NCBI RefSeq assembly: GCF_003432035.1
Contig: NZ_QOHO01000043.1
Coordinates: 1-64,000, forward strand
Direction of reading: 5' to 3'
Length of the DNA: 64,000 nucleotides
Origin: Lacrimispora amygdalina
Lineage (GTDB): Bacteria; Bacillota; Clostridia; Lachnospirales; Lachnospiraceae
In this document: positions 3,821 through 60,518 of the stretch, in pieces
How the letters are laid out: each line of letters begins with the position of its first letter
Numbering within the stretch: position 1 is the first letter of the stretch
Notes under the pieces: generated by a model
The model's database searches: none
What the model was told of the DNA's origin: nothing
Seen by the model: only the letters and a program-made list of their open reading frames with translations
Translations under genes and position numbers: made by a program

Positions 3821-4003
3821 TTATTGTGAGTGAACTGAAAATTTCCAATAGTTACAATTTGTCAAAACCTCAAATTTGTTCTCGTTTGGTAGATATTTTA
3901 CTCGTGAAATTTGTGGGCTTGTAGAGCATATGTATTGATAGGTCTTTGAATCTAGGTTGTATTTATTGTCGCCTAATATTTTTGCGATTTCCCAATCATA
4001 CAT
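3821..4003 (-). CDS. Hypothetical 60-residue protein
   Basis: The start ATG overlaps the stop of the RusA-like gene (TAATG, one shared base at 4003), so it is likely translationally coupled. The protein is mixed alpha/beta with two cysteines. No family is recognised. Confidence 0.55.
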   Translation of the reverse strand: MYDWEIAKILGDNKYNLDSKTYQYICSTSPQISRVKYLPNENKFEVLTNCNYWKFSVHSQ

Positions 4004-4437
4004 TAATGAATAATCACCTCGATTTCGGTACGAGGGTTATTCTTGTCATAGCTAGTTTTTAAAGTGAGAGAGCGAAGATGCGACCCGTCGTCGTCAACAA
4101 TGAAGCCAGACTCGCTAAAGCCATCTAAAATAAATTTAGGAACCGTATTATCACAATCTATCCGTCTTTTAGTTGGCATATATGTAGTAAAAATCATTTC
4201 AAAGTTATCAAGATGTTCATTTTGTAATCCTAAATCGTTAATCCACCAAAAAATGAAATCTTTCCACTTTTGCTTTAGAGCATTCATTTGAATACGTGGC
4301 AACACCATCCAAATATTTATGGAAGGGTGGTAGGCATGTTCAATTGCCTTTTTTCTAGCTCTTGGGTGTTTGGAAAAATAATACTTATTATATTTTTCCA
4401 CCACGCCACCATCTAATATCAATTTTATTTTTTCTAT
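4003..4437 (-). CDS. RusA-like Holliday junction resolvase
   Basis: This is an endodeoxyribonuclease that resolves four-way DNA junctions. The C-terminal half carries the RusA acidic signature: RRIDCDNTVPK, then LDGFSESGFIVDDDGSH, matching the catalytic aspartates of the family. About 144 residues is a normal length. Start choice is difficult. The only conventional start, a GTG at 4476, lies inside the terminator stem of the upstream unit and has no ribosome binding site. The AAAAGGAAGTGA site instead points to ATA (4437) or ATT (4443). This is one of several apparent non-canonical starts in the window. Confidence 0.8.
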   Translation of the reverse strand: MEKIKLILDGGVVEKYNKYYFSKHPRARKKAIEHAYHPSINIWMVLPRIQMNALKQKWKDFIFWWINDLGLQNEHLDNFEMIFTTYMPTKRRIDCDNTVPKFILDGFSESGFIVDDDGSHLRSLTLKTSYDKNNPRTEIEVIIH

Positions 4438-4463
4438 GACAATTTCACTTCCTTTTCTGCAAT

Positions 4464-5587: not shown

Positions 5588-5627
5588 AAAGGTGCTGCCG
5601 ACTTGTCCAGAGTGGGGCAGTGCCTTT
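5588..5627 (+). terminator. Bidirectional-looking terminator hairpin
   Basis: AAAGGTGCTGCC and GGCAGTGCCTTT pair over 12 bp as plus-strand RNA, using two G-U pairs, followed by ATTTTTT. On the minus strand two A-C mismatches weaken the stem, though TTTT follows there too. It lies between the RHH gene and the antirepressor. Confidence 0.55.
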
Positions 5628-5793
5628 ATTTTTTGATTTTCTCTAATATTTCTGACGCACTTATACCACTGTTCAAATATATCTCTACAAATTCTTTTAT
5701 GAATCCTTGAACAGAAATTCCATCTTTTATCGTCTTTAACTTAAGACTTTGATGAATGTCGTCATCTAATCGCACAATTATCTGTTTAATAAT
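5626..5793 (-). CDS. Small ribbon-helix-helix (Arc/CopG-like) regulator with ATT start
   Basis: The product is about 55 residues. It reads QIIVRLDDDIHQSLK near the N-terminus and then KDGISVQGFIKEFVEIYL, the strand-helix-helix pattern of small DNA-binding regulators. GGAGG lies six bases before ATT ATT, and the frame has no ATG or TTG; the only GTG is 24 bases downstream inside the conserved strand. I therefore place the start at ATT 5793 (5790 possible). A promoter with a palindromic operator lies just upstream and fits autoregulation. It is probably the local repressor of the RHH-antirepressor cassette. Confidence 0.65.
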   Translation of the reverse strand: MIKQIIVRLDDDIHQSLKLKTIKDGISVQGFIKEFVEIYLNSGISASEILEKIKK

Positions 5794-5826
5794 TTTACAC
5801 CTCCATCTATAATATTTGATAATAAG

Positions 5827-5868
5827 ATATCATGATATTATGATAGCATGAATGCAGAAATAAGTCAA
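5827..5868 (-). promoter_or_regulatory. Promoter with palindromic operator for the RHH regulator
   Basis: On the minus strand there is TTGACT at 5868-5863, a 17-bp spacer and TATCAT at 5845-5840. ATATCATGATAT, a perfect 12-bp palindrome at 5827-5838, overlaps the transcription start. The palindrome suits a dimeric RHH repressor. Confidence 0.7.
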
Positions 5869-8592: not shown

Positions 8593-9324
8593 CTACTTAT
8601 CATCAATCCACCACGACAAACATGACTTGTCGGTCATTTTCGAAACATCTACCGTCCCGGAGTAAACTCCTGTCATAGTTTTATCAAAGGTAATACTTTT
8701 CTGTATTTGCTTGAAACTTTGGTTAAATTTATATATTGATAAATTCATTACTTCTTCATAGTTGTATTTAAATTCTGGTCTGTTAACCAGCGCAACTATT
8801 AAGTTTTCCAAATATGGCTTGTATGGTTTCTTGGCATTGCGCTTTTGTCTCTTTCTCTCCTTTTCAAGCAAATAACGCTTTGCCTCATCATTACCTGGCT
8901 TTGACTTAATCTCTTCAATATTGTTGATTTTTCTAAGAGCGTTTACAATTTTTATGTATATAAATTCATCAATTTTATAATCTATTCCGTTTGTAGGACT
9001 ATACAAAATATTTGTATCATTGGTTTGATCCACATAAACGCCGTAATCATTTGTATTCATATCAAAAAACAACATTGATAAATCCGATTTACCATACATG
9101 GGAAAGAGAGTCATAAATAACTCGTAATTTGATATCTCGGTATAATCTATTCCCATATCATCCAACTGCACCATATACTGATATGGTGTAGCAGTAAGAG
9201 AGGAGATGATAGAATAATATGTTTGTTCATCTTCGAGAATTTCGCCAACTTTGGGTATGCGAAGTCTAAGTTTCTCCGTAATATTTATATGGTCAGATAA
9301 TAGTAAACTCTTCTTATCTTCCAT
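8593..9324 (-). CDS. Hypothetical tail/neck-region protein
   Basis: This is about 243 residues of mainly helical, charged sequence with a basic stretch (KERKRQKRNAKKPYKP, around 150) and a Trp-rich end (CLSWWIDDK). The ATG at 9324 overlaps the end of the upstream gene by 11 bases. It is placed between head-tail connectors and the tail tube. The family is not recognised. Confidence 0.55.
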   Translation of the reverse strand: MEDKKSLLLSDHINITEKLRLRIPKVGEILEDEQTYYSIISSLTATPYQYMVQLDDMGIDYTEISNYELFMTLFPMYGKSDLSMLFFDMNTNDYGVYVDQTNDTNILYSPTNGIDYKIDEFIYIKIVNALRKINNIEEIKSKPGNDEAKRYLLEKERKRQKRNAKKPYKPYLENLIVALVNRPEFKYNYEEVMNLSIYKFNQSFKQIQKSITFDKTMTGVYSGTVDVSKMTDKSCLSWWIDDK

Positions 9325-9805
9325 ATTTGGCACCATCACTGAAATCCTTCACTACAAATTTAAGCAGACGACCTTTGAATTTTTGTTGCGGATAATACGG
9401 AACATTACTTACCAAAGTAGTAGTTCCTATACCCAGAATATTTTTATCGGAGAAGATATTGTCCAACTCACAAACTGCTTTATCATACCAGAGATAAGTT
9501 CTCCCATTTTCCTCATATCTTATTGCGTCTTGATGGCAGATGATATAGAAGTATATGGTTAAATCCTTATATACATCATTCCTTGGGTCAATGGCAGCAC
9601 TAATTTCAAAGTTGATGAATTTATCGGTTTGAGTAATGGTCTCTGGAATATATTCATGAGGAAAAGACCATTTATAAGGGATAATGTCTTCCGGATATTC
9701 TTCTTCAGCTTCGCCAAGTAATTTTATCAACTCTTCTGACCTACAAATTTGATCCATAATTAGCTTACGATACTCTATTATTTCATAACTTCTTGCTTTA
9801 CCTAT
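9314..9805 (-). CDS. Putative head-tail connector / tail terminator protein, ATA start
   Basis: This is about 163 residues. The frame is open 16 codons upstream of the first ATG (9757), and those codons read GKARSYEIIEYRKLIMDQIC, which looks like the natural N-terminus of such phage proteins (short basic start, then helix). A run of nine G plus TGG lies just upstream of ATA at 9805, while the ATG at 9757 has no ribosome binding site. I therefore infer an AUA start. The C-terminal half is beta-rich (TYLWYDKAVCELDNIF, GIGTTTLVSNVPYYPQ), as in minor head-tail proteins. Confidence 0.65.
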   Translation of the reverse strand: MGKARSYEIIEYRKLIMDQICRSEELIKLLGEAEEEYPEDIIPYKWSFPHEYIPETITQTDKFINFEISAAIDPRNDVYKDLTIYFYIICHQDAIRYEENGRTYLWYDKAVCELDNIFSDKNILGIGTTTLVSNVPYYPQQKFKGRLLKFVVKDFSDGAKYGR

Positions 9806-13522: not shown

Positions 13523-14284
13523 TTATTTGCTTACTTTAATTGCGCCATATTTTGTCTGAACGACTCCCTCATCATTAGATGTGTAGTCAACAATATCAGC
13601 GGTTAAAGTATCATTGTTTTTCTGCTTCTTTGTAAAATTTGTATTTAAAGATTTTTGTGTAAATAAAATTGCACATTTTGCTTCAATCTGATCCAATGAT
13701 AAATTATCTTTCTCATTTTTAAGTGCCGTGTACTCATCCACTGTACTTAAATGTTCATCAAATTTCGCAAAACACTCATCCTTTTTAAGTTCAACGGCTT
13801 TCTTCTCGTTTTCGGCTTTTTCTCTTACGAAATCTTCATATTTCGGTTTAATCTCGTCGTATTCTGACTTAATAGAAGAGTAGTTAGTTTCAGCAGTTTC
13901 TTTCGCAGTTGTTAATTCGCCAATCTTTTTATCAGCGGTTTTACAGAAATCTTCCACTTCATTTGCAAAAGAAAAAGCACCATCAATTACTTGAGTGCCT
14001 TCTTCAAAATTTGTGTATTCAATTTTCTTTCTGGTTTTAGTTGTAAAATCTACCGCTGGTTTGTCTCCATTCATCGTAAATTTAAAACCGAAGTAGGTAT
14101 AATTTTCTGCTCTATCAATACAAATTACCTCATCGTTCTGTAAATCTACGGCAGAATATCTTATTCTTAAATCTCCCCAACGATCTCGATACTGTTCATG
14201 TGCAGAAACTATATTATCTATTTCGCTAAACTGTTGCATCGCAGTTAAAGAGAAATCAGTTTTTGTTTCCTCTGGTTTTGCCAT
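13523..14284 (-). CDS. Nested scaffold protein from internal start
   Basis: Inside the protease-scaffold gene, AAAGGAGGTACACAA immediately precedes an in-frame ATG at 14284. It would yield a 253-residue protein starting MAKPEETKTDF that contains the whole coiled-coil scaffold part. The upstream residues encoded by the site (NKGGTQ) look like a linker. This matches the nested-scaffold strategy known from lambda Nu3. Confidence 0.7.
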   Translation of the reverse strand: MAKPEETKTDFSLTAMQQFSEIDNIVSAHEQYRDRWGDLRIRYSAVDLQNDEVICIDRAENYTYFGFKFTMNGDKPAVDFTTKTRKKIEYTNFEEGTQVIDGAFSFANEVEDFCKTADKKIGELTTAKETAETNYSSIKSEYDEIKPKYEDFVREKAENEKKAVELKKDECFAKFDEHLSTVDEYTALKNEKDNLSLDQIEAKCAILFTQKSLNTNFTKKQKNNDTLTADIVDYTSNDEGVVQTKYGAIKVSK

Positions 14285-26204: not shown

Positions 26205-27431
26205 CTAATTTAAAATAATCTTATAAGTCTCATCGTGACCATATATTTCATTGAATCCATATATCTTTACGGAAGCCTTGCTTCCTTTCATTAGGGAATC
26301 GGAATATGGGTCACTCCCAACAAATGATGGAGCAATTAGAACCTCACAATCTGAACAGCAACCTTCATTACTTGTGAGTTCTTTTCCAGCATGAAAATGT
26401 CCCATCAGAAGAACATCTATAAATGACCGTCTTAACATAGATAAATCTTTTAATGAATTTTCTATGCTTTTAATCTGATGCCCGTGAAGCGCTACAATCT
26501 CATTCCCCAAAATAGGAATGTCAATATATCCTTTACCTTCATCTGCTAAGTGAACACAAATTCGTTCGTTATCTTTGCATAAATCCTTAATATAATTGCC
26601 AATAAGGTACTCTAAATCCTCGTCCATAAGTTCGTTGGCTTTACTGCCCAACACCCGCGTCTGCGTATGATTTGCCATCGGCACATGATAATATTCGATT
26701 TTTACGAAAGTGGATAATTCATTTAAGAATGTTGCAATAAGACGGCTGATTTCAACCGTAGACTTAACAACGGTACTATCGTTAATTCGTAAATCATTAA
26801 TCCGAAGAATTCCTTGAAGTAAGTCTCCTAGACTGACAATATGTAATTTCTGCAATTCTTTTTCGGTGATAAATCTCACCAGCTCATAACCCAAAAATTC
26901 CAAACGCTCTTTTATTATATCGGGAGAGTATTCATTGTTTTCACTTTTAAATTTTGCCCCATAATGAATGTCTGCCAGTGCTACTAAATATTCTTCTGGG
27001 AATGATTTTTTGCAATCACTTGGTTCATACGAATACAAAGGCTTAAAATCAGGCAGTGGGAGAGCATCACATGTTCTTCCAACATATTCATAGTACATTT
27101 CTTGACGAGAAACGTTTCTATCAATGCGACTTCTTTCGATGTTGGCTGTCTGCAATTTAATATTTTCCTTGCGGATAGCATCTAATTTTAAATCAAGTTC
27201 CCTCATATGTTTATCAGAATCACATGATTCAGTTTTAGCGTCACTATATCCTTCCAGATAACTTTTCATATGCTTACGATGAGCAGATTCATCAAAACAT
27301 ACTCCGAAAGCTTCGTTACACAGCCTGCCGATCTCAGGATTACTTAATCCATATAGTTCCTTATTCTTGTACAGTCTTATTCTGTATGCCTTTGGTTCTT
27401 CGTTTGGCTGTCTTAATGCCTTACTGTCTAT
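26205..27431 (-). CDS. Calcineurin-like metallophosphoesterase with N-terminal helical domain, ATA start
   Basis: This is about 408 residues. Phosphoesterase metal motifs are DIHYG, GDLLQG, NHTQ, LHGH and MGHFH in order, as in SbcD/Mre11-like DNA exonucleases or phosphodiesterases. The first conventional ATG (27269) would delete a domain that is open upstream and looks conserved (RLYKNKELYGLSNPEIGRL ... SAHRKHMKSYLEGY). The upstream frame runs to a TGA with no ATG, GTG or TTG. AAGGGTGGGC lies eight bases before ATA 27431. I therefore infer an AUA start. Confidence 0.82.
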   Translation of the reverse strand: MDSKALRQPNEEPKAYRIRLYKNKELYGLSNPEIGRLCNEAFGVCFDESAHRKHMKSYLEGYSDAKTESCDSDKHMRELDLKLDAIRKENIKLQTANIERSRIDRNVSRQEMYYEYVGRTCDALPLPDFKPLYSYEPSDCKKSFPEEYLVALADIHYGAKFKSENNEYSPDIIKERLEFLGYELVRFITEKELQKLHIVSLGDLLQGILRINDLRINDSTVVKSTVEISRLIATFLNELSTFVKIEYYHVPMANHTQTRVLGSKANELMDEDLEYLIGNYIKDLCKDNERICVHLADEGKGYIDIPILGNEIVALHGHQIKSIENSLKDLSMLRRSFIDVLLMGHFHAGKELTSNEGCCSDCEVLIAPSFVGSDPYSDSLMKGSKASVKIYGFNEIYGHDETYKIILN

Positions 27432-29270: not shown

Positions 29271-29444
29271 CTACTTAACGATCTTAGATTTCCGAATTTT
29301 CTGTAAATCTGCCATACCTTTTCTTGATTCGGTAAAATAATATTTTTTGTATCGGCTATAAGTATGATGTAAGTCACCTTCATTTCCAAACATATAACCT
29401 AATTTTTGCAACTCAATACTTTCTGATTTTGTAATCTGAACTAT
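29271..29444 (-). CDS. Hypothetical 57-residue basic protein, ATA start
   Basis: Read from ATA 29444 the protein starts (M)VQITKSESIELQKLGYM and ends MADLQKIRKSKIVK, a coherent small phage protein with helical, lysine-rich character. AAAGAGGG lies eight bases before the ATA. The frame has no usable ATG, GTG or TTG near the start (the first TTG is codon 12), so this is an AUA-start candidate. It lies between tRNA-Asn and the PhoH gene. Confidence 0.65.
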   Translation of the reverse strand: MVQITKSESIELQKLGYMFGNEGDLHHTYSRYKKYYFTESRKGMADLQKIRKSKIVK

Positions 29445-29489
29445 TGGTAAAACCCTCTTTCTTGTTTTGTATTCCGTTTAATACGGTAA

Positions 29490-29562
29490 CTGACTAAGTA
29501 GGACTTGAACCTACGACCCAACGGTTAACAGCCGTTTGCTCTACCAACTGAGCTATTGGTCA
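29490..29562 (-). tRNA. tRNA-Asn (GUU)
   Basis: It has an acceptor TGACCAA/TTAGTCA (one C-A mismatch), D arm AGCTCAGTTGGTAGAGC, anticodon arm AACGG-CTGTTAA-CCGTT and T arm GTAGG-TTCAAGT-CCTAC. CCA is not encoded. Confidence 0.92.
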
Positions 29563-29631
29563 ATAAAATACCAATGACAACACTACCAGAACGGTAATAC
29601 CGCCATTGGCTTGAAAAGTAACCTTATTCAT

Positions 29632-31082: not shown

Positions 31083-31577
31083 TTATTTGTGCGATATGTG
31101 TTCAGCTAATTTTGCATCTTTACGTGCTTTTTCTAGTCGTAATTCATACAATTCACTTGTTGTATATTTAGATTTTTTCTTTACATTTGGTGGAACGTAT
31201 ATTCCTATAATTTTGTCTTTTACTGTTCCATAATTCATATTATATTTTCTAGTACACCATTCTAAATTTTCAACGCGATTATTTTTCTTATCTTCATCTT
31301 TGTGATTTACTTCTGGTAGATTATTTGGATTATCAATAAATGCAATTGCCACCAGGCGATGGATAAATTGGGCTTTATACTTTCCGTTTTTACATAGGCG
31401 AATCGAAAAATAACCACGGTTATTAACAGTAGGTTTTCTTATTGATTCTTTTTGTAACCTGAAATTATTGTTATTACTTTTCACCAATCTCTCAATACTC
31501 TTTACTCTACCGTAGTTTGATATTTCATATAAATCTTCGTAGCCGAATATAGGTTTCCAAACTTCTTTATTTTTTAT
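31083..31577 (-). CDS. HNH homing endonuclease with NUMOD4 domain
   Basis: Residues 1-50 form a NUMOD4 module (EVWKPIFGYEDLYEISNYGRV). Then comes an HNH_3-type nuclease (FIHRLVAIAFI ... EVNHKDEDKKNNRVENLEWCTRKYN). It is free-standing just downstream of the RNA polymerase gene. The frame can start at GTG 31586 or at ATA 31577; the latter sits six bases after AAGAAGGTG and gives MKNKEVWKPI, the usual family start. The start is therefore ambiguous. Confidence 0.88.
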   Translation of the reverse strand: MKNKEVWKPIFGYEDLYEISNYGRVKSIERLVKSNNNNFRLQKESIRKPTVNNRGYFSIRLCKNGKYKAQFIHRLVAIAFIDNPNNLPEVNHKDEDKKNNRVENLEWCTRKYNMNYGTVKDKIIGIYVPPNVKKKSKYTTSELYELRLEKARKDAKLAEHISHK

Positions 31578-31616
31578 GTAAAACACCTTCTTCCCTTAAT
31601 GAAACAAATTTTAATA

Positions 31617-33332: not shown

Positions 33333-34738
33333 CTTAATACCCTCGGTTTCCCGATATTTAAGTAGGGGAGTAGACTATATCATCACCCTTAAAGGGTGCG
33401 TGGCACTTCGCAAGTGGGAATTTCGCCCACAAGCTACTCCTTTCGGATAGTCGTTACACCTTCTTCTTTTAAAGAAGCTTGGCACGGAATTGACTTGTAT
33501 ATTTCAAAATTCGATAATATATTTTTAATACTTGTTTCTATGTCGTCATTATATTTGATTTCAAATAATGGTATATTATGCTGATTACAGTATTGTCTTT
33601 TTAATGGATCCGTTTCATTTCGTTGTTGTTCTCCAAACCATCCATATGACTCATCGTAATGTTGCTGACCTTGAAATTCCAAAAGACACAACAGCATATC
33701 TTCACTATTCATTATTGCAAAGTCAAATTTTAACTTCCAACCTTTTTTACTTTTTAAATCATTAAACCCATATTGAGTTTTAAAATTTACACTCATTGTG
33801 TTTAACAAAATCCTGATGGTTTCTTCTCCACGAGAAATTGTACATCCACAACTTGTTACACTACCACGAACTAAATCATGACCTCTTATAGTTTTTGTAG
33901 AACCACATTCGCATTTGCAAAGCCATTGTGAATATTTTGCTCCATTTTCTCCGACAAAAGAACCATCTCTATTTAATACTGTTAATTTCCCAAATTTCTT
34001 TCCTAATAAATCCATTGAAAATCTTTCAGAAGTTATTTTACTCTTATAGCATCCGCAACTCGTAGTAGTTCCTTCTTTCAATGAATAGGAGATAATAGAT
34101 ACTTCATTGCCGCAATCACATTGACACTTCCAATATACTCCTTGAGATTTAGGCATTGTTTCATCACGTTCTATAACAACCAATTTTCCAAAACGTTTGC
34201 CAACTAAGTCAATTGTTAATTTTTCTGATGTAACTTCACTATGTAAACATCCACAACTCTGTGTCAACCCTCGCTTTACATTGGTTGCATTAACAGAAAC
34301 TATATTTCCGCAATCGCACTCACAAATCCAATTTAATTTGTTATTTACGTCTGGATGTAAAAATGTTAATCTATGTAAATGGATACCAGTCATATCTGCC
34401 TTTTTATGTTTTAAACAACCACAACTTTTCACATGTCCACTTGTTAATCGACTACTTGTTACTTCAATAATATTTCCACAAGAACATTTACATTTCCATC
34501 TAATAAATGTTCTATTATTTTTAAAAGAGTAGTTCTCAATTTTATCTATTACTATTAATTCGTTGAACTTTTTACCAACTAAGTTTTCCATATTTCACCT
34601 CCATTCATAATAAAATTTGTTTTATCGAATTAAAATATATTTAGTTTTTCTCCGTTAGCTGCAATAGCAACACCCTAGATGTCTAGGTTCACCACGTTTT
34701 CGATACACATTACTGTGTAAAGGCACTCATGTTAATGC
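33333..34738 (-). other. Group I intron in the RNA polymerase gene
   Basis: The 5' boundary is after a U (exon ..AAAAT, intron GCATTAAC). The 3' boundary is after a G (intron ..GTATTAAG). This obeys group I rules and restores TKSQFKM-KYYESWDEY across the join. Core elements visible: GTGGTGAACCTAG and GCTAACGG near the 5' end; ACGACTATCC at 33,436-33,448 pairing with GATATAGTC near 33,370 (P7), with P8-P9-like hairpins between (GGGCG.AATTCCC). The intron carries the homing endonuclease at 33434-34591 in the same strand. Confidence 0.85.
33434..34591 (-). CDS. Intron-encoded homing endonuclease with four zinc-ribbon repeats
   Basis: This 385-residue protein has four tandem modules of the form VGKKFGKLxVI followed by CxCxCG...SCGC (around 1-65, 66-115, 120-170, 195-250), which bind DNA. 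The C-terminal domain has RGEETIRILLNTM, DFAIMNSEDMLLCLLEFQGQQHY and RQYCNQHNIPLFEI, a PD-(D/E)xK-like nuclease of the EDxHD/I-Bth0305I-related type. TGGAGGTGAAAT precedes the ATG. It drives homing of the intron into intronless polymerase genes. Confidence 0.85.
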   Translation of the reverse strand: MENLVGKKFNELIVIDKIENYSFKNNRTFIRWKCKCSCGNIIEVTSSRLTSGHVKSCGCLKHKKADMTGIHLHRLTFLHPDVNNKLNWICECDCGNIVSVNATNVKRGLTQSCGCLHSEVTSEKLTIDLVGKRFGKLVVIERDETMPKSQGVYWKCQCDCGNEVSIISYSLKEGTTTSCGCYKSKITSERFSMDLLGKKFGKLTVLNRDGSFVGENGAKYSQWLCKCECGSTKTIRGHDLVRGSVTSCGCTISRGEETIRILLNTMSVNFKTQYGFNDLKSKKGWKLKFDFAIMNSEDMLLCLLEFQGQQHYDESYGWFGEQQRNETDPLKRQYCNQHNIPLFEIKYNDDIETSIKNILSNFEIYKSIPCQASLKEEGVTTIRKE

Positions 34739-35835
34739 ATTTTAAATTGACTTTTGGTAAAGATTACTTGTATATCTTCTTTGATAATGTCATGTTCTTT
34801 TCCATAAATATCTTTAATAATGGAAGAGTAGTGGTTGACCTCAACAAATTTCCTAAAATCAAATACTCCTAATAACCCCTTAATCCACGGCGCACGAAAC
34901 ATAAAATTCTTTTGACTTACACTGGGTAGCATCATACCAGCTCCGTCCGTGTGAGGAATTGGAACATAATCAGTTTTTCTGGTGATAGAATAATCAGATT
35001 CATCTATGAAGTCAAAAGTACCATATACATTGCTTTCAAAATCATCAATTACTATTGACTTATCTATATCAAAATTTCCCCACAAATCGGTTGCTGAATT
35101 AGTAAGAGCCATATAAGCAAGATGCTTATTAACATTGTTACCTCCTTTTGAATTGATTTTATCAATAGTCAATCCACACATTACAGTTTTTTCAATGCGA
35201 TTCCAAACAGATTCTTTTATAAAAACCGCTTTTTTCTTACGAATTTGCCCAGCAGATGAAGTGAAATACTTATATTTTTCACCTTTATATGTAAATCCAT
35301 AAAAAGAAATATCTTTAAATACATCGAAATAATATACCTGCACAACCATTAATGCATCTGTTAGTTCATCTTGCTTTATCCCAATCGTTCTGGTGAGAGC
35401 GGAATCAAAGACCGATATTACATTGTTATCAGTTAAACTTCCTTCTCTTATTTCTCGTATATGGTCTTTACCATCTGTTTTCTCATTTTGACTAACCTTA
35501 TTAGACAAGAGAGTAAGCAACTTCTCTTTTGAATCTTTTGCCTTTTCTCTTTTATGCCTTATAAGATTATTCCATTTTATATATTCCTGAATGGTATCTA
35601 TATGTTCTGGTAATATTTCAAATTCAACCTCTTCAGATTTATTTGATCGAAACAATGAAATATCATCTTTGGAGTATCCAAATTCTTTTAGATTTTTTTC
35701 TAATTCAGGAAGTTTGTTGTTTAAGTAATTACGTTCTCTGCGATATTTACAATTCATATCATGAAGATATTTTTCATGATTACTATAAAAATGTCCAGTA
35801 TCAACAGAGTACATGTTAATTTGTACGTCTAAAAT
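34739..35835 (-). CDS. YonO-like single-chain RNA polymerase, 5' exon, ATT start
   Basis: This is the N-terminal 366 residues of the polymerase. Near the end it has IPHTDGAGMMLPSVSQ, FMFRAPWIKGLLGVFDFRKF and VIFTKSQFKM, motifs shared with YonO/QDE-1-like polymerases (first double-psi barrel). Without splicing the frame ends two codons past the splice site. The only upstream conventional start, GTG 35850, overlaps the GGAGG itself; ATT 35835 is eight bases after GGAGG and gives MLDVQINMYSVD. An AUU start is therefore inferred; ATG 35799 lacks a site. Confidence 0.82.
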
Positions 35836-35953
35836 ATCTACATCCTCCACAATCTATATTTTATTATTCTTTTTAGTCTTAACTTGTGTTACAATATTCT
35901 TAATGCTATGTGGCAATAGCAGGAAACCAATTCAACCATAAGGAGGTTCATAT

Positions 35954-37351: not shown

Positions 37352-38224
37352 CTACTCTTGATAAAACTTCTTATTTCTTCGTTCAAATAAGTATTGGATT
37401 CCATACTTTAATTCTCTTTCCCAATCGTATTCATCGTTATCACAAATTCTAAAGGTTTTATTATTGAGTAATATCTTGTATGGAAAAATGTAAATGATAT
37501 CATCGGTACGCCAATTTGATTCCTTGTCCTTATAGCTAGGCATTCTATAAGTCTTTATAAGTCCCAATTCTTCTAAAACCGTAGTTGCTCTTGATACCAT
37601 TTTCCGATTCATTCCTAAAAAACCCCCCATTGCTTCAAAATTAGAATGAAATATTTCTGGCTTATCCTTTTTCGATTTTTCTGAATGACCAGTTATCTCA
37701 TTAGTGCGAGTCCAAGTAAATGCTCTAATATAGGAGAGTAACAATAATAAAATACTTTTATTTAATGGTTTGTATGAAGATTGATATTTCATGATGGCAG
37801 CAATCTCAAAATCATATATGATACCAAAATTTTTATCTGGTATTAATTTCTCCATATTTAAAAAGGAAGACTGAAAATTATTTTGCAGATATTTATCTGA
37901 ATCGAAGTCCAGAATATAACCATTTTCAAAATACCAGTTCATACATAATAGATATTTATCATAAATATTAGGTTTGTCTTTTGTACTCGTTCTCCAATTG
38001 GCCTTATAACCAGACCACTGAATCATGTAAATGGGGGAGTAGTGCACCATCTCGTCCCAAGTTTGGTTATGATTCAAATATGCAAGTATTGAAATCCGAT
38101 GTTCAGGTAAAGTACTTGCTAAAATTACTTCTTTTGAAACCTTTATGTATCGATTTGGTATTTGAGGGGTTACTGGCATAGTTTCTGACTCTGTTGGTGA
38201 TTTATTGTTTTCTGGAATATCTAT
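37352..38224 (-). CDS. Winged-helix replication-initiator-like protein, ATA start
   Basis: This is about 290 residues. The C-terminal half contains a helix-turn-helix/winged-helix region (GGFLGMNRKMVSRATTVLEE, then LGLIKTYRMPSY), as in DnaD/replication initiation proteins of phages and plasmids. The first ATG (38179) has no ribosome binding site. The frame is open 15 codons upstream to ATA 38224 (DIPENNKSPTESET), which sits seven bases after AGGTGA; further upstream is an in-frame TGA. I infer an AUA start. It may act on the repeats near 41.5 kb. Confidence 0.68.
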   Translation of the reverse strand: MDIPENNKSPTESETMPVTPQIPNRYIKVSKEVILASTLPEHRISILAYLNHNQTWDEMVHYSPIYMIQWSGYKANWRTSTKDKPNIYDKYLLCMNWYFENGYILDFDSDKYLQNNFQSSFLNMEKLIPDKNFGIIYDFEIAAIMKYQSSYKPLNKSILLLLLSYIRAFTWTRTNEITGHSEKSKKDKPEIFHSNFEAMGGFLGMNRKMVSRATTVLEELGLIKTYRMPSYKDKESNWRTDDIIYIFPYKILLNNKTFRICDNDEYDWERELKYGIQYLFERRNKKFYQE

Positions 38225-39106: not shown

Positions 39107-39160
39107 AATTTATTCTCCTTTTACTATTATCCGTTTACGACATATATGTTGTTGTGATGA

Positions 39161-39193
39161 CATATACTTTCCGAAAATAAGCAAAAGTATATG
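39161..39193. other. 10-bp inverted repeat upstream of the AntA/AntB gene
   Basis: CATATACTTT and AAAGTATATG pair across a 13-nt loop. A direct repeat of ATAAAGAAAGAC lies nearby at about 39,225-39,262. Both are between two antirepressor genes and may be operators. Confidence 0.4.
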
Positions 39194-39297
39194 CTGCTGT
39201 GGGTGTCGAAATCAGCCACCCTTTTATAAAGAAAGACTGTAATAATATAAAGAAAGACCTCTATTATTCGTTTCCTTTTATAATTTTTGAGTTGTCT

Positions 39298-59486: not shown

Positions 59487-59515
59487 TTGACAATATATGA
59501 TATATCCTATATAAT
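59487..59515 (+). promoter_or_regulatory. Sigma-A promoter
   Basis: TTGACA 59487-59492, 17 bp, TATAAT 59510-59515, upstream of the DUF4160/DUF2442-like pair. The spacer contains ATATATGATATAT, possibly an operator. Confidence 0.8.
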
Positions 59516-59546
59516 GGTTGTAGAACAACAAAGGAGAAATGGTAAA

Positions 59547-59801
59547 ATGCCAGTTATTTCAAGATTCTATGGGATTGTGATAAAGATGTATCTGAGACAA
59601 AAAGAGCATAACCCTCCTCATATTCATGCAATTTATGGGGAATATATTGGTATGTTTTCCTTAGAAGATGGAGAAATGTTTGAGGGTGATATTCCTCAAA
59701 AAGGACAAGTGCATATAAAAGAGTTTATAGATTTTTATAGAGATAGATTATATATAATGTGGGAAACACAGAAATTTGAAGTGTTACCACCGGTTAAATA
59801 A
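59547..59801 (+). CDS. DUF4160-type toxin-like protein
   Basis: This is 84 residues; the ATG at 59547 follows AAAGGAGAAATGGTAAA. Family signature: MPVISRFYGIVIKMY then HNPPHIHAIYGEY. DUF4160 proteins are usually paired with DUF2442 proteins in toxin-antitoxin-like operons, as here. Biochemical role not established by sequence. Confidence 0.82.
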   Translation: MPVISRFYGIVIKMYLRQKEHNPPHIHAIYGEYIGMFSLEDGEMFEGDIPQKGQVHIKEFIDFYRDRLYIMWETQKFEVLPPVK

Positions 59802-59816
59802 TATGGAGGTGATATT

Positions 59817-60287
59817 ATGTCTCATAAACTAAAAAGTGTAAGGGCATTAAATGATTTAATATTGCTCGCTATATTTCAAGACGGTACAGAAAAAATGTAT
59901 GATATCAAGCAGTTATTTACTGTTTTTCCTCAACTTCGTGAGTTAGAAAGATCTTTTGATTTATTTAATGGAGTGCAGATTGACACTGGAGGATATGGAG
60001 TTTCATGGAATGATGATTTGGATTTAGACGCAGAAGAAATTTGGGATAACGGAATTAATACTGAAAAGAAACATTTAATTGACATCAAGCAAAGTTTTGC
60101 CACTAAGCTGATTTCAGCAAGAGAAATTTGCAATATAACACAAAGGGATTTGTCTAAAAGAGCAGGGATTACTCAGGGAGATATAAGTAAAATTGAAAAT
60201 GGAAATGCTAATCCATCATTGAGTACGTTAGAAAGACTAGCGGAAGGACTCGGAATGAGAATTGAATTTAATTTTGTAGGCAAGTGA
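59817..60287 (+). CDS. DUF2442 plus XRE HTH antitoxin-like protein
   Basis: This is 156 residues. The N-terminal half is DUF2442-like (VRALNDLILLAIFQDGTEKM, GGYGVSWNDDLDLDAEEIWDNG in pieces). The C-terminal half is an HTH (NITQRDLSKRAGITQGDISK, IENGNANPSLSTLERLAEG). ATGGAGGTGATATT precedes the ATG. The fusion makes it the likely antitoxin/autoregulator of the pair. Confidence 0.85.
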   Translation: MSHKLKSVRALNDLILLAIFQDGTEKMYDIKQLFTVFPQLRELERSFDLFNGVQIDTGGYGVSWNDDLDLDAEEIWDNGINTEKKHLIDIKQSFATKLISAREICNITQRDLSKRAGITQGDISKIENGNANPSLSTLERLAEGLGMRIEFNFVGK

Positions 60288-60299
60288 GGAGGTATCGTT

Positions 60300-60518
60300 A
60301 TAAACAATTGGGATAATAAGAGTAGAAATGATAAAGACTTTGTAGAAAAAGAACTTGCTGATTACGTCGTAAAGTTTTCTAAAGAAATAGACAAAAATAA
60401 TGCTAGTCAGATTGCCAAAGATATCATTAAATTAATTGATTGGGATAATTCAACCTTAATGCACAAGGGATTGTCGTGGATTGCCAAGAATTACTTAATT
60501 CAACAGAAGATGATTTAA
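60300..60518 (+). CDS. 72-residue hypothetical protein with ATA start
   Basis: GAGGAGG lies seven bases before ATA 60300. The frame from the previous gene's TGA onward has no ATG, GTG or TTG until codon 52. The protein (M)NNWDNKSRNDKDFVEKEL ... LIDWDNST ... LSWIAKNYLIQQKMI is coherent, helical and fully bounded. It follows the DUF4160/DUF2442 pair and may belong to that operon. This is the cleanest AUA-start candidate in the window. Confidence 0.65.
   Translation: MNNWDNKSRNDKDFVEKELADYVVKFSKEIDKNNASQIAKDIIKLIDWDNSTLMHKGLSWIAKNYLIQQKMI

Follow-up and report, generated by a model that had tools for sequence, protein, structure and literature searches.

The window analysed here covers bases 1–64,000 of contig C114 (95,795 bases), which belongs to a bacterial assembly of 5.94 Mb in total. 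The GC content of C114 is 33%, versus 41–42% for the sampled host contigs, and its tRNA genes encode tRNA-Ser, tRNA-Asn and tRNA-Gln. One gene in the window is a full-length relative of SPBc2 yonJ (99% of the query, 36.7% identity by tblastn). Phages of staphylococci, enterococci, lactobacilli and bacilli account for most of its tblastn matches, and the best ones include many SPbeta-type Bacillus phages; sequences close to its N-terminus are found in Robinsoniella (Lachnospiraceae), in an uncultured genome of the same family and in Clostridium sp. 12(A). We infer that C114 represents a phage or prophage of SPbeta-like type whose host is a member of the Lachnospiraceae; a phage of this lineage also appears to be present in the organism of JAGI01000002, "SPbeta-like" being a working label resting on the YonJ-type exonuclease.

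Six genes of the window carry ATA as their putative start codon. They are listed with the energy (kcal/mol) and spacing (nt) of their Shine-Dalgarno (SD) sequence and, for the first five, the distance in codons to the first in-frame ATG, GTG or TTG downstream.

60300..60518, plus strand: 72-aa gene, ATA at 60300; SD GAGGAGGT at 60286-60293, -16.5, spacing 7; +53
29271..29444, minus strand: 57-aa gene with a tRNA-Asn gene 45 nt upstream, ATA at 29444; SD AGAGGG, -8.7, spacing 6; +11
26205..27431, minus strand: 408-aa YonJ-like exonuclease (phrog_284 exonuclease match, residues 44-407), ATA at 27431; SD -9.1, spacing 9, or -11.2, spacing 11, depending on the register; +54
37352..38224, minus strand: 290-aa gene with a weak match to replication initiation proteins (phrog_428, E 0.0031), ATA at 38224; SD -12.0, spacing 10; +15
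9314..9805, minus strand: 163-aa virion structural gene (phrog_6123), ATA at 9805; SD -19.5, spacing 7; +16
4003..4437, minus strand: relative of RusA-like resolvases; SD AAAGGA at 4450-4455, spacing 10

The first five had been singled out in the first-pass annotation as AUA-started genes on both strands, with a strong SD and no ATG, GTG or TTG in reach. All five positions read ATA on the strand given for them, 60300 on the plus strand and the other four on the minus strand; none has an in-frame canonical codon upstream, and the nearest one downstream is 11–54 codons off. The SDs of 9805, 60300 and 38224 are strong as described, whereas the energies of 27431 and 29444 make these two moderate. 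Alignment with homologues, which that annotation had suggested, strongly backs the AUA start for four of the five genes, their relatives carrying ATA, ATG, TTG, CTG or ATC at the ATA column; for 60300, for which no homologue was found, the start is likely only.

At 9805, the column is occupied by ATA in G105 and G112, by TTG in G107 and by CTG in G108, each with its own SD. Among four distant relatives placed by eye, L125 has ATA, L124 ATG and L126 TTG, and L127 is unplaced. The ATA of 27431 directly follows an in-frame TGA CGT; G103, G104, G105 and G112 share it and L028 has ATG behind the SD AAGGAGG, while several other relatives differ at the N-terminus. For 29444, ATA is found in G104, L034, G103, L009 and L006, ATC in L036, and TTG in G105 and G109, both lacking a clear SD. 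The ATA of 38224 is matched by ATA in L023/G104, in L026 and, two codons along, in L025/G110, where weaker SDs also precede in-frame ATGs further upstream. The sixth gene (4003..4437) shares 58–59% identity with genes of G103 and G112 that are also ATA-started at that column; the G112 gene matches phrog_1682 (RusA-like).

Searches of 16 records, of 24 further genomes from the genus and of viral_contigs gave no homologue of the 60300 gene. Its codon-use score is 0.384; 64 short genes have a mean of 0.146 and a 90th percentile of 0.387. Together with its SD, we take its ATA to be a probable start codon. Two small genes precede it (59487-60287), the second of which resembles an XRE-type antitoxin by eye, so the 60300 gene may sit in a toxin-antitoxin operon.

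Several other features of the window were noted. The tRNA-Asn gene (29489-29563) lies directly before the 29444 gene, and tRNA-like sequence is present at the equivalent place in relatives. The YonJ-like protein has a mosaic make-up: the first ~80 residues are close to G103-G105, and the remainder has its matches (up to 69%) in L002 and others, which carry a different N-terminus from that of the window protein. Two minus-strand genes, 5626-5829 and 34732-35853, are possibly AUU-started; ATT stands well spaced after GGAGGTG and GGAGG, respectively, and no SD-supported canonical start was found for either.

Codons at the ATA column in homologues

In some genes, the position of the ATA leaves little choice of start. 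The gene of a DnaB-like helicase, located beyond the window on C114 (81125-82735), has ATA immediately after an in-frame stop; its PHROG match begins at residue 14, and the next canonical codons are TTG at +24 and ATG at +44. The G109 relative has TTG three codons upstream. A C5-methylase gene of G103 also has a stop directly before the ATA; its Pfam match begins at residue 3 and no canonical codon follows until the GTG at +22, so a later start would cut off the beginning of the methylase domain. Further ATA genes encode an RdRP-match protein aligning with the yonO region, a RusA-like resolvase and a DUF1064/resolvase-like nuclease.

Two cases come from SPbeta itself. At yoqJ (L129:38434; SPBc2 88434), SPbeta has ATA where BUCT083, Goe11, phi3T and SPbetaL3 have ATG, in an alignment made by eye in which the lengths differ by one residue. 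In-frame ATGs follow 15 and 52 codons after the ATA; GenBank takes the second, at 88590, as the start, and SPbeta yoqJ appears to be mis-annotated. For yoqL (L129:39353; SPBc2 89353), the GenBank start is an ATT five codons after an ATA; in phi3T, the SD of the ATT is altered while the ATA and its SD are kept. This is suggestive only, and yoqL may start at the ATA rather than at the annotated ATT.

The start column was compared over a curated set of 27 ATA starts, counted after the removal of SPbeta, 39127 and 31083; 13 of the 27 have homologues alignable at the start. Alignments had to begin within query residue 3 at an identity of at most 97%, again excluding genes 39127 and 31083. At the ATA column, 36/37 homologue codons are of start type, compared to 53/432 at columns 2–12, with the caveat that neither the phages nor the homologue pairs are independent of one another and that some pairs were counted from both sides. 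The 37 codons are ATA (23), TTG (4), ATG (4), CTG (2), ATT (2), ATC (1) and TTT (1); the lone exception, the TTT row, has a CTG one codon upstream. Since a conserved isoleucine could mimic this signal, internal ATA codons of the same proteins were used as control. ATA or NTG stands opposite the start in 33/37 cases and opposite internal ATA codons in 77/227 (P 1.5e-10), and the share of ATA among isoleucine codons is 23/26 at the start versus 63/118 internally (P 0.0008). Internal ATA swaps mainly with ATT, ATC and GTT, that is, as isoleucine does, so the genetic code looks standard.

The codons from the ATA to the next canonical one have a dN/dS of ~0.10. Because synonymous sites were saturated in the first calculation, this value was recomputed by subtraction, omitting four whole-gene G112_42392 rows. 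No in-frame canonical codon exists upstream in 16/27 curated genes; 8/27 have an in-frame GTG three codons upstream, within the SD, and 3/27 have a more distant ATG or TTG. That the proteins begin further down, or that sequencing errors or decayed starts account for the ATAs, would agree with existing annotation, which takes later codons such as 88590 in SPbeta yoqJ. However, several genes have an in-frame stop directly before the ATA, purifying selection acts on the N-termini, separate assemblies show the same ATA and the methylase domain would be truncated; we consider such an explanation highly improbable.

Mean SD energy, with all genes cut at -8.5, is -12.06 for ATG, -12.95 for TTG, -13.4 for GTG and -14.08 for ATA starts. 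The SDs of curated ATA genes are stronger than those of ATG genes (P 0.0025), a comparison biased by the fact that ATA genes were partly picked by SD strength; 63% of the 27 have an SD at -13 or stronger. In non-ATA orthologues, ATG is used in 3/10 (or 5/13) cases versus a background of 77%, the numbers being small and the sets of 10 and 13 hand-compiled, with repeats and the TTT row dropped. Taken together, the conserved position of the ATA, its replacement by other start codons in relatives, the purifying selection behind it and the stronger SDs at weaker codons all point to AUA as the start.

These data also bear on whether AUA starts, though real, are neutral, a G-to-A change at ATG being tolerated wherever the SD is strong and serving no regulation. 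ATG to ATA is a transition, the phages are of 32–34% GC (31% in MT835469), one gene alternates between ATA, TTG, CTG and ATG, the four relatives of yoqJ retain ATG, and the SDs of ATA genes are indeed strong. Such a transition in an AT-rich genome may explain why ATA is seen rather than ATT or ATC. Against neutrality, ATA is retained at one column across divergent phages whose synonymous sites are saturated, and the share of ATG among non-ATA orthologues is far below the background. We regard neutrality as unlikely overall, but as a serious alternative; the 10–13 orthologues hint that low yield is maintained by selection in at least some of the ATA genes.

Census of ATA behind Shine-Dalgarno sequences

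The census covered nine related sequences (C114, G103, G104, G105, G107, G109, most of G108 and G110, and 60 kb of G112) and their 817 genes of at least 80 codons. An SD-supported canonical start was present in 591/817 genes, and 118 of the remainder have a strong SD without one. In the 192 SD-anchored in-frame slots of these 118 genes, ATA occurs 31 times versus 4.78 expected from codon use (binomial P 2.2e-16). Observed and expected numbers in the same slots are 16 and 8.07 for ATT, 4 and 0.91 for CTG, 1 and 2.31 for ATC, 3 and 1.10 for ACG, and 9 and 5.34 for AAG. By spacing, ATA fills 31/184 slots at 5–9 nt and 3.6–5.7% at other spacings; ATT shows no peak confined to 5–9 nt. The 31 genes fall into 24 unrelated families. 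When read through, about six of these 31 looked ambiguous, which is near the chance expectation. Taken singly, the sequences give signals between P 1.6e-5 (G109) and 0.3 (G108).

The same census of host genes gave ATA in 2/633, with 1.35 expected. Five control phages (T4, SPO1, Arawn, Bo-Finn and MT835481, the last retained though it is a distant yonJ relative) gave 0/256 genes with 0.63 expected, which are small samples; compared to 31/817 in the lineage, P is 0.0003. Idris, a near copy of Arawn that also has no ATA, was omitted. The SPbeta relatives were kept out of the pooled controls, and their observed and expected ATA numbers are 2 and 0.33 for SPbeta (100 kb), 1 and 0.37 for phi3T, 2 and 0.60 for the faecal phage MT835469, and 1 and 0.07 for the Staphylococcus SPbeta-like phage. 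Earlier versions of the census point in the same direction (23 versus 3.39 in six sequences; host 0 versus 0.48). When SDs were scanned more loosely, without regard to gene position, ATA was not among the top 20 codons.

Several ATAs were rejected on reading. The one at 39127-39297 in the window was dropped as its SD is lost in G104, and it is too short for the census. The HNH gene at 31083-31595 (ATA at 31577) has a GTG three codons upstream that could serve, and the ATAs at 13523 in the window and 94460 in G105 have GTG GTG directly upstream. G103 61810 was dropped for an ATG one codon upstream, G112 35064 for an ATG two codons downstream, and G110 1231 as having only its SD in favour. Except for 39127, these stay within the unedited count of 31.

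SD-supported canonical starts in the nine sequences number 440 for ATG, 93 for TTG and 36 for GTG; with 31 cases, ATA is almost as frequent as GTG. AUA thus appears to serve as the start codon for a few per cent of the genes, some of them replication genes, in large SPbeta-like phages of Clostridia-type gut bacteria. Common gene finders accept only ATG, GTG and TTG as starts, so a few per cent of genes in these phages would be truncated or missed. Among those affected are the relative of a replicative helicase and a DNA methylase whose catalytic domain would be cut short at its beginning.

Initiation machinery and known AUA starts

The initiator of the host is an ordinary tRNA-Met (CAT) at C18:516-589, with GGGCTCATAACCC. 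No initiator-like tRNA was found in the scanned phage stretches, outside which lie G107, G108, G112 and parts of G109 and G110. G109 encodes a tRNA-Ile(UAU), which we take to be without initiator features. An IF3_N search of the genome gave one match only, the host IF3 gene. This gene (infC; L163, G000 C125) itself seems to be ATT-started, after TGGAGGTG, as is the autoregulated gene of E. coli.

Some phage or host feature, such as an altered initiator tRNA, a modified anticodon or an anti-IF3 factor, might render AUA initiation efficient in infection. The excess is specific to ATA, with ATC below expectation and ATT lacking a spacing peak; the signal is strong in the lineage and absent from the sampled host genes, and one relative (G109) has the tRNA-Ile(UAU). 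However, that tRNA lacks known initiator features, the tRNAs of C114 are the three given above, the host initiator tRNA is standard, and the sole IF3_N match is the host gene. Published AUA starts of S. aureus require no altered initiation factor or tRNA, according to the available part of PMC13009471. On the stretches scanned, such a feature is improbable, and the earlier proposal of altered initiation during infection finds no support here. Little more probable is a broader version, in which AUA, through a phage or host feature that lets the initiation complex take AUA but not AUU or AUC, would be a standard start near GTG in frequency, with the level of IF3 during infection tuning low-copy replication, modification and virion proteins.

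The explanation we favour, with good confidence, is that AUA is a genuine and regularly used minor start codon in the SPbeta-like lineage, working through a long SD and the ordinary initiator tRNA at reduced yield. The long SD helix, usually 5–9 nt upstream, would position the 30S subunit; the host initiator tRNA (CAU) would read AUA via a weak C:A pair at the third position; and the product would be a normal fMet-started protein made at reduced yield. This mechanism is of a known kind, since AUA starts with long SDs have been measured in S. aureus. In reporters there, AUA starts with extended SDs yield ~10% of AUG, and ccpN up to 30% in rich medium (PMC13009471, available part). The view of the first-pass annotation that AUA is an extremely poor initiator in known bacteria overstates the case where Firmicutes and long SDs are concerned. 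Weak pairs at the third base are excluded by IF3 in vitro (PMC10158994, excerpt), and an ATG-to-ATA variant of E. coli rpoS has reduced RpoS (PMC12864459, excerpt).

By analogy with the S. aureus reporters, yield from the phage AUA starts would be low and the products are probably made in small amounts, with IF3 presumably limiting the yield. A low-level, IF3-sensitive gene set is plausible on this analogy, together with the stronger SDs and the use of ATG in 3/10 orthologues. With many natural AUA starts in one lineage, near-cognate initiation and IF3 control of expression level become directly testable, and SPbeta yoqJ offers an AUA-start case in B. subtilis 168.

As in E. coli infC, where IF3 autoregulates through an AUU start (PMC13009471, available part), the phage genes would use a near-cognate AUH start that IF3 discriminates against. 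Unlike infC, they are many and unrelated and would mostly start at ATA. Mitochondria read AUA as methionine with a changed tRNA. The phage lineage resembles them in that AUA would be read by an initiator, and differs in that internal ATA behaves as isoleucine and the code looks standard.

Among the open-licence PMC full-text matches listed, no report of AUA starts at ~3–4% of phage genes was found, which is not proof of absence. The closest system is that of S. aureus, where infC, ccpN and citZ start at AUA and cvfC1 at AUU, all with an extended SD, and the ccpN case is conserved in B. subtilis also (PMC13009471, in its available part). The phage genes share with these the AUA start, the strong or extended SD, conservation across species and the phylum. 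Different from the four chromosomal genes named in that part of PMC13009471, they belong to a phage lineage, amount to ~3–4% of its genes and cover many functions. Single AUA-started genes are thus already known in Firmicutes; their routine use by a phage lineage seems to be new.
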